This document shows, in pieces, positions 9,784 to 10,567 of a stretch of DNA of 64,000 nt. The notes beneath the pieces are model-generated. The model saw only the letters and a list, made by a program, of their open reading frames with translations, had not been told where the DNA came from and did no database searches. This DNA comes from Promethearchaeia archaeon (GTDB taxonomy: Archaea; Asgardarchaeota; Lokiarchaeia; Sigyniarchaeales; SOKP01). How positions within the stretch are numbered: position 1 is the stretch's first letter; each line of letters opens with the position of its first letter. Both the position numbers and the translations under genes were made by a program. The stretch is taken from contig JAHQWG010000028.1 of the NCBI GenBank assembly GCA_029856045.1, positions 142,547-206,546 of the forward strand, written 5' to 3'.

Positions 9784-9873
9784 TTTTTGAGATATCTTAT
9801 TAGTAGAAATTATTTAAATACTTTAAACAATATTAAATTAATATAATTTAATTAACATTAATTTAAGAGAATT

Positions 9874-9889
9874 CTTATAAATTATATAA
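9874..9889 (+). promoter_or_regulatory. putative TATA box for the 9.9-kb GTPase gene
   Basis: CTTATAAATTATATAAC lies about 60 bases upstream of the inferred ATT start. An archaeal TATA box here would place the transcript start near 9910, leaving a leader that includes the SD. It is inferred from sequence and spacing only. Confidence 0.4.
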
Positions 9890-9931
9890 CAATCTTTCTT
9901 TATCAAAATTAATAGAGGAAATTTATTTAAT

Positions 9932-9940
9932 AGGAGAGGA
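9932..9940 (+). promoter_or_regulatory. strong Shine-Dalgarno preceding an ATT start codon
   Basis: AGGAGAGGA lies six bases before ATT at 9947. It is among the best SD matches in the window and marks the translation start of the GTPase gene, whose frame has no ATG, GTG or TTG between the upstream stop (9887) and codon 42. Confidence 0.75.
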
Positions 9941-9946
9941 TTAAAT

Positions 9947-10567
9947 ATTCCAAGTCGTCGCGGAGATGGAACACTTGTATTCAAAGTTGTATTCTGGGGT
10001 CCCTCTTTAGGAGGGAAAACTACTGCTTTAGAATGGGTTTACAAGAAGGAGGGGCTTGCTTCAGGTGATATGCAGCAAATAGCTGACCCAACTGGAAGAA
10101 CCCTCTTTTTTGACAGAGTTGTCGCTCGAGTAAGCAATGTAGTTTTTCAAGTATATACCGTTGCTGGCCAGAGACGCCATAAGTTCCAGAGACGAACGGT
10201 CCTCAAAGGAACTGACTGCATCCTCTTCTTTTGGGACAGTTTAATCGACCAGTGGGAAGAAAATATATGGAGTTTAAAAGAATTATTACAATTTTATGGA
10301 GATAAATTAATTTCTAAAAGTTTTTCTGACCCAGCGGAAGTTCCACTCGTTGTTTGTGCAAATAAACGTGATTTAGAAGATATTGTAGAGATAAATAAGA
10401 TTCGCGAAGTTCTTGATAAAGCTAAGTTAAATCAAACGTTGGTCTATGAAACGATCGCAATTACCGGAGTTAATGTGAAGCGAGGATTTGTTTATGCTGC
10501 ACGCCAGGGGGTGCTAAATCATTATAAAAAACTTCAGGGCGAAGTGTCCGAGCAAGAGACTGCGTAA
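9947..10567 (+). CDS. MglA/Ras-like small GTPase, inferred ATT start
   Basis: A 206-residue GTPase when read from ATT at 9947. The G1 P-loop GPSLGGKTT is at 18-26, G3 is VAGQ near 72-75 (AGQ instead of DxxG, as in MglA-type GTPases) and G4 is NKRD at 139-142. The first ATG (10070, codon 42) would remove the whole P-loop, so it cannot be the functional start. In-frame codons between the upstream TAA at 9887 and that ATG include no GTG, TTG or CTG, and a strong SD sits six bases before the ATT. The gene stands alone between a divergent phosphodiesterase and a convergent methyltransferase. MglA relatives act as polarity or signalling switches; the partner is unknown. A sequencing error at the start codon is the main alternative. 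Confidence 0.88.
   Translation: MPSRRGDGTLVFKVVFWGPSLGGKTTALEWVYKKEGLASGDMQQIADPTGRTLFFDRVVARVSNVVFQVYTVAGQRRHKFQRRTVLKGTDCILFFWDSLIDQWEENIWSLKELLQFYGDKLISKSFSDPAEVPLVVCANKRDLEDIVEINKIREVLDKAKLNQTLVYETIAITGVNVKRGFVYAARQGVLNHYKKLQGEVSEQETA

Follow-up and report, generated by a model that had tools for sequence, protein, structure and literature searches.

A probable ATT start codon in an MglA-like GTPase gene of Lokiarchaeia, and candidate mini-introns in its orthologues

The GTPase reading frame and its initiator

Where does translation begin in a small GTPase gene that encodes its P-loop 5' of the first ATG of its frame? We met this arrangement in a 64,000-nt stretch of archaeal DNA (the window), which belongs to a genome of 3.34 Mb in 55 contigs (G000) whose nearest relatives within a named collection are Candidatus Lokiarchaeota MAGs. 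After a TAA stop (positions 9887 to 9889), the frame is open on the plus strand from 9890 to 10567 (225 codons), and its first ATG, GTG, or TTG is the ATG at 10070, 60 codons past the stop. The original prediction, made from the sequence, placed the P-loop upstream of the first ATG, saw no usual start between the stop and codon 42, and noted a strong Shine-Dalgarno (SD) sequence six bases before an ATT. Each of these observations holds, with the following features.

9875 to 9882, plus strand: TATA-box-like TTATAAAT, a reading of the sequence, largely conserved in the four-species alignment
9932 to 9940, plus strand: SD AGGAGAGGA, 6 nt 5' of the ATT, with the 16S tail GGATCACCTCC; identical in four species
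9941 to 9946, plus strand: spacer TTAAAT between the SD and the ATT
9947 to 9949, plus strand: probable ATT start codon, conserved in G001, G002, and G004 and aligned with ATG, GTG, TTG, ATA, or ATC elsewhere
9947 to 10567, plus strand: coding sequence of an MglA/Arf/Ras-like small GTPase, 206 codons plus stop, from Pfam, MglA structures, and an orthologue alignment from residue 1
9998 to 10021, plus strand: P-loop GPSLGGKT, residues 18 to 25 counted from 9947, 5' of the first ATG
10070 to 10072, plus strand: first ATG of the GTPase frame (codon 42); a start here would give a GTPase without the P-loop

The product has both hallmarks of a Ras-superfamily small GTPase (Arf/MglA-like): its translation contains the P-loop GxxxxGK[ST] and the guanine-specificity motif NKxD (as ANKRDLED). 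It matches the Pfam families Arf (6e-9) and Ras (1e-7), both above the gathering score. Among PDB sequences, the closest solved structures are those of MglA (1e-21 to 1e-22), with Rab7 at 2e-8, and by sequence the GTPase is nearer to MglA than to Rab or Arf. With the gliding and polarity GTPases of the MglA type (PDB 5ymx, 3t12, 6h17, and 6hjh) it has in common the P-loop GxxxxGKT and the NKRD motif, and both read TVAGQ where Ras has DTAGQ. Unlike MglA, the window GTPase is archaeal and has a different N terminus (MPSRRGDG), and the likeness is drawn from sequence alone. No Rfam family matched anywhere in the 64,000-nt window.

Several local features point to the ATT at 9947. The 16S rRNA of the window genome ends in GGATCACCTCCTTTT, which makes AGGAGAGGA a good SD, and the predicted SD:anti-SD duplex has an energy of -9.6 kcal/mol. 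No other credible start exists, and the AUU has this SD at the proper spacing. Among 308 long non-overlapping open reading frames (ORFs) in roughly 460 kb of the window genome, the distance from the stop to the first NTG has a median of 4 codons and a 95th percentile of 23; the 60 codons of the GTPase gene are the second largest value, so the long NTG-free stretch exceeds what chance would give. Of the other window ORFs that have a syntenic counterpart in the related genome G004, nearly all keep the called NTG start, which, together with the distance census, indicates that ATT starts are rare in the window genome. From these features and the comparisons below, we consider it very likely that translation of the MglA-like GTPase starts at ATT 9947.

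Another non-NTG codon close by could in principle serve as the start, for example the TTA at 9941, which is in frame between the SD and the ATT and would leave the ATT as an internal Ile codon. There is only a slim chance of this: the TTA immediately follows the SD, the aligned starts of other orthologues fall at 9947, and we know of no case in which TTA acts as an initiator.

Other candidates in the same DNA were considered. A second ATH start, at ORF 228 to 743, was rejected; no SD precedes any candidate codon, and the ORF was read as running antisense to a gene that is truncated at the edge of the window. Around the SD itself, positions 9924 to 9947 form an 8-bp inverted repeat of A and U only (arms 9924 to 9931 and 9940 to 9947), with an 8-nt loop that is exactly AGGAGAGG. 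We discarded a regulatory hairpin presenting the SD here, as the pairs are all A/U and the fold is no better than that of shuffled sequences (z of about 0). Elsewhere in the genome (L089:5204-6794, minus strand, contig C27), a 529-codon ORF reaches its first NTG only after 61 codons and has an ATT that follows a moderate SD; its upstream part may simply be non-coding.

Start codons in close relatives and across Lokiarchaeia

Aligning the 5' region with orthologues, the check that accompanied the original prediction, placed an identical SD and ATT in G000, G001, G002, and G004. The latter three genomes belong to the same genus, encode proteins that are 98% identical, and also have the same spacer. 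The prediction had named an ATG, GTG, or TTG at 9947 in close relatives as evidence against it; the three nearest relatives keep ATT, and the ATG and TTG of more distant ones only locate the start. The ATT is not genus-wide, as the fifth genome of the genus (G003, 88% identity) has ATG at the start position. The four ATT species are also fairly similar in their non-coding upstream DNA, and SD conservation alone is therefore weak evidence.

The coding side of the alignment is more telling. Between G000 and each of its three ATT relatives, codons 2 to 41 differ by 10 or 11 synonymous and 0 nonsynonymous changes, all at third positions; the frame 5' of ATG 10070 is therefore translated, and this segment, including the P-loop, is under strong purifying selection. 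In G001, G002, and G004, the frame is closed by a stop about 11 codons 5' of the ATT, and no NTG occurs before the P-loop, so the start must fall within that short interval, where the ATT at 9947 appears as the only credible initiator beside the SD. A gene caller restricted to ATG, GTG, and TTG would choose codon 42 (10070) and yield a truncated protein without the P-loop. We give this start hardly any credence, given the purifying selection on codons 2 to 41, which hold the P-loop, and given that orthologues translate the whole region from ATG, TTG, or GTG. It is likewise barely conceivable that the ATT is an assembly error (the true base at 9949 being G) or that the gene is a pseudogene. The data do come from a MAG, and G003 does have ATG, but ATT is common to four separately assembled genomes that differ at many synonymous sites, and the remainder of the GTPase gene is intact and constrained.

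To place the ATT in a wider context, we used 51 orthologues whose 5' end could be read, found by searches of related genomes. The aligned start codon is ATG in 29, TTG in 12, GTG in 3, ATT in 4, ATA in 2, and ATC in 1, and the ATT genomes group in a single clade (support, 99/98). The ATT case is thus not unique: within the class, one genome has ATC at the same codon, and one or two have ATA. The ATC start (L066, in G051) has AGGTGA six bases upstream, and one ATA start (L054, in G049) has GGTGAT five bases upstream; the second ATA (L116, in G060) is ambiguous, with in-frame ATG and GTG codons overlapping its SD. Because ATG, TTG, GTG, ATT, ATC, and ATA all occur at the aligned codon, the start codon at this position has changed many times, with probably at least three independent origins of AUH. 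With ATT kept in four species and other starts at the same codon in relatives, the ATT initiation originally proposed is well supported.

SDs were stronger in non-AUG than in AUG orthologues (10 versus 24 sequences; P = 3e-4 [by a Mann-Whitney test that ignores phylogeny]), with the ATT clade represented by one sequence. In a further orthologue set, ATG and TTG members had SDs of similar, overlapping strength.

Another gene of the window genome also has an SD before an ATT. In L012 (contig C41, near 2019, minus strand of the locus), a Rab-like GTPase has GGAGG about 8 bases 5' of an ATT. This ATT is conserved in four species (relatives L136 to L138), as is an in-frame TTG overlapping the SD, which makes the start ambiguous.

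Probable mini-introns in GTPase orthologues

GTPase orthologues from seven related genomes (G005, G008, G011, G013, G018, G060, and G075; loci L045, L046, L047, L048, L060, L116, and L117) contain a total of 15 insertions of 29 to 33 nt, up to four per gene. Most carry in-frame stops or frameshifts, and they are sited among conserved residues. Insertion sites are shared between genomes (FK|I, K/E, GD|M, Q|V or VY|T, DQ|W, GE|N, and GP|S). For each insertion, we enumerated the junctions that restore the protein and looked for the bulge-helix-bulge (BHB) arrangement of two 3-nt bulges 4 bp apart. At the best protein-restoring junction, all four central BHB pairs were present in 12 of the 15 insertions and three of the four in the other 3, compared with 4/4 pairs at 2.4% of random positions; choosing the best among several junctions biases the result slightly toward a BHB fit. 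In one insertion (L116b), the 4/4 junction costs the protein one residue, which is retained at a junction with 3/4 pairs. An independent minimum-energy fold of L048b gave nearly the same BHB structure (z of -5), and two other cases fold less clearly.

All of the insertions fit the BHB fold at protein-restoring junctions; we therefore take them to be probable tRNA-type introns in pre-mRNA, which the tRNA splicing endonuclease would cut. This enzyme (PF01974) was found above the cut-off in each of the eight genomes searched. In the intron-bearing genomes, the regions searched of gyrA, an rpoB domain, and the TruB_N domain of cbf5 had no such insertions; one TAA was flagged in gyrA of G018. On the strength of the junctions and folds, genuine splicing of the mini-introns of Lokiarchaeia GTPases seems likely to us. 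The GTPase orthologues may be a hot spot for BHB mini-introns, in the same gene that repeatedly takes the weak starts ATT, ATC, ATA, TTG, and GTG. That expression of the GTPase is gated after transcription is a tentative and rather improbable idea.

In the literature consulted, archaeal pre-mRNA introns have been described for cbf5, and elsewhere there are only predictions (PMC2738675, PMC4810243). As in cbf5, for which BHB introns of 36 bp are reported (PMC2738675), the insertions in the GTPase orthologues would be short mRNA introns with the fold of the tRNA splicing endonuclease. They differ from the cbf5 introns in lying in another gene, in Asgard archaea rather than Thermoproteota, at several positions, and in numbers of up to four per gene. 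In the literature searched, whose coverage is incomplete, we found no report of pre-mRNA introns in Asgard archaea.

Not all irregular copies of the GTPase gene belong here. One paralogue in the window genome (L009, contig C3, 43375 to 43737) carries stops and a frameshift close to the P-loop, and it is probably a frameshifted pseudogene rather than an intron case. In G029 (L063; contig C2, 99321 to 99515), a fragmentary second copy comprises the C-terminal 65 residues and a stop codon, about 2.2 kb from an intact GTPase gene.

The window GTPase gene itself is without an intron. Could the removal of one nevertheless create its start, with an upstream exon supplying an NTG that is joined before the CCA at 9950? 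The BHB mini-introns in the coding regions of orthologues from the seven related genomes lend this idea some footing, but the upstream sequence makes it very unlikely. The TG dinucleotide is absent from the 150 nt upstream in G000 and G001, and in G002 and G004 it occurs once each, without conservation. In the window, all three frames are free of NTG between 9788 and 9946, so short-range splicing cannot have supplied the start; the last NTG begins at 9787, 5' of the TATA-like box, and the likely transcript start would lie about 25 nt 3' of that box, near 9905. The good, well-spaced SD would also sit inside the supposed intron. Direct initiation at the ATT is the reading that we carry forward.

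Probable initiation at AUU and its meaning for Lokiarchaeia

We propose that the SD AGGAGAGGA, at a spacing of 6, would place the 30S subunit over the AUU and that initiator Met-tRNA would read this codon with a mismatch at the third position only. The predicted protein would begin Met-Pro-Ser-Arg-Arg, and an ATT start predicts the N-terminal peptide MPSRRGDGTLVFK or PSRRGDGTLVFK, or a tryptic fragment thereof. The ATT would have arisen once, in the ancestor of the four species of the genus, presumably from an NTG start, and the same codon would have become TTG, GTG, ATC, and ATA independently in other Lokiarchaeia.

The bacterial infC gene, which encodes IF3, has a conserved rare AUU start with an SD 5' of it, and its product discriminates against AUU, leading to autoregulation. 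The window gene resembles infC in having a rare, conserved AUU initiator behind an SD. In contrast to infC, its product is an archaeal small GTPase with no known role in initiation rather than an initiation factor that discriminates against AUU, and its relatives exchange ATG, TTG, GTG, ATT, ATC, and ATA; autoregulation of the infC type does not apply to it. It is plausible that the ATT limits expression or ties it to initiation factors, an idea on which only the stronger SDs of the non-AUG orthologues bear. The output from AUU is likely to be lower than that from AUG, partly offset by the SD. A weak rather than impossible AUU start fits the discrimination of archaeal aIF1 against non-canonical starts (PMC6237735).

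Gene callers restricted to ATG, GTG, and TTG would miss the P-loop of this GTPase. The ATT species beside their ATG relatives also provide a natural experiment on how Asgard archaea choose start codons; to our knowledge, AUU initiation is rarely documented in archaea. The mini-introns in the orthologues outweigh the ATT start in importance and are the more novel lead. If genuine, they would be the first pre-mRNA introns reported for Asgard archaea within the literature searched and would explain seemingly broken GTPase genes in Asgard assemblies. They would also extend archaeal pre-mRNA splicing to genes other than cbf5 and to the closest archaeal relatives of eukaryotes.
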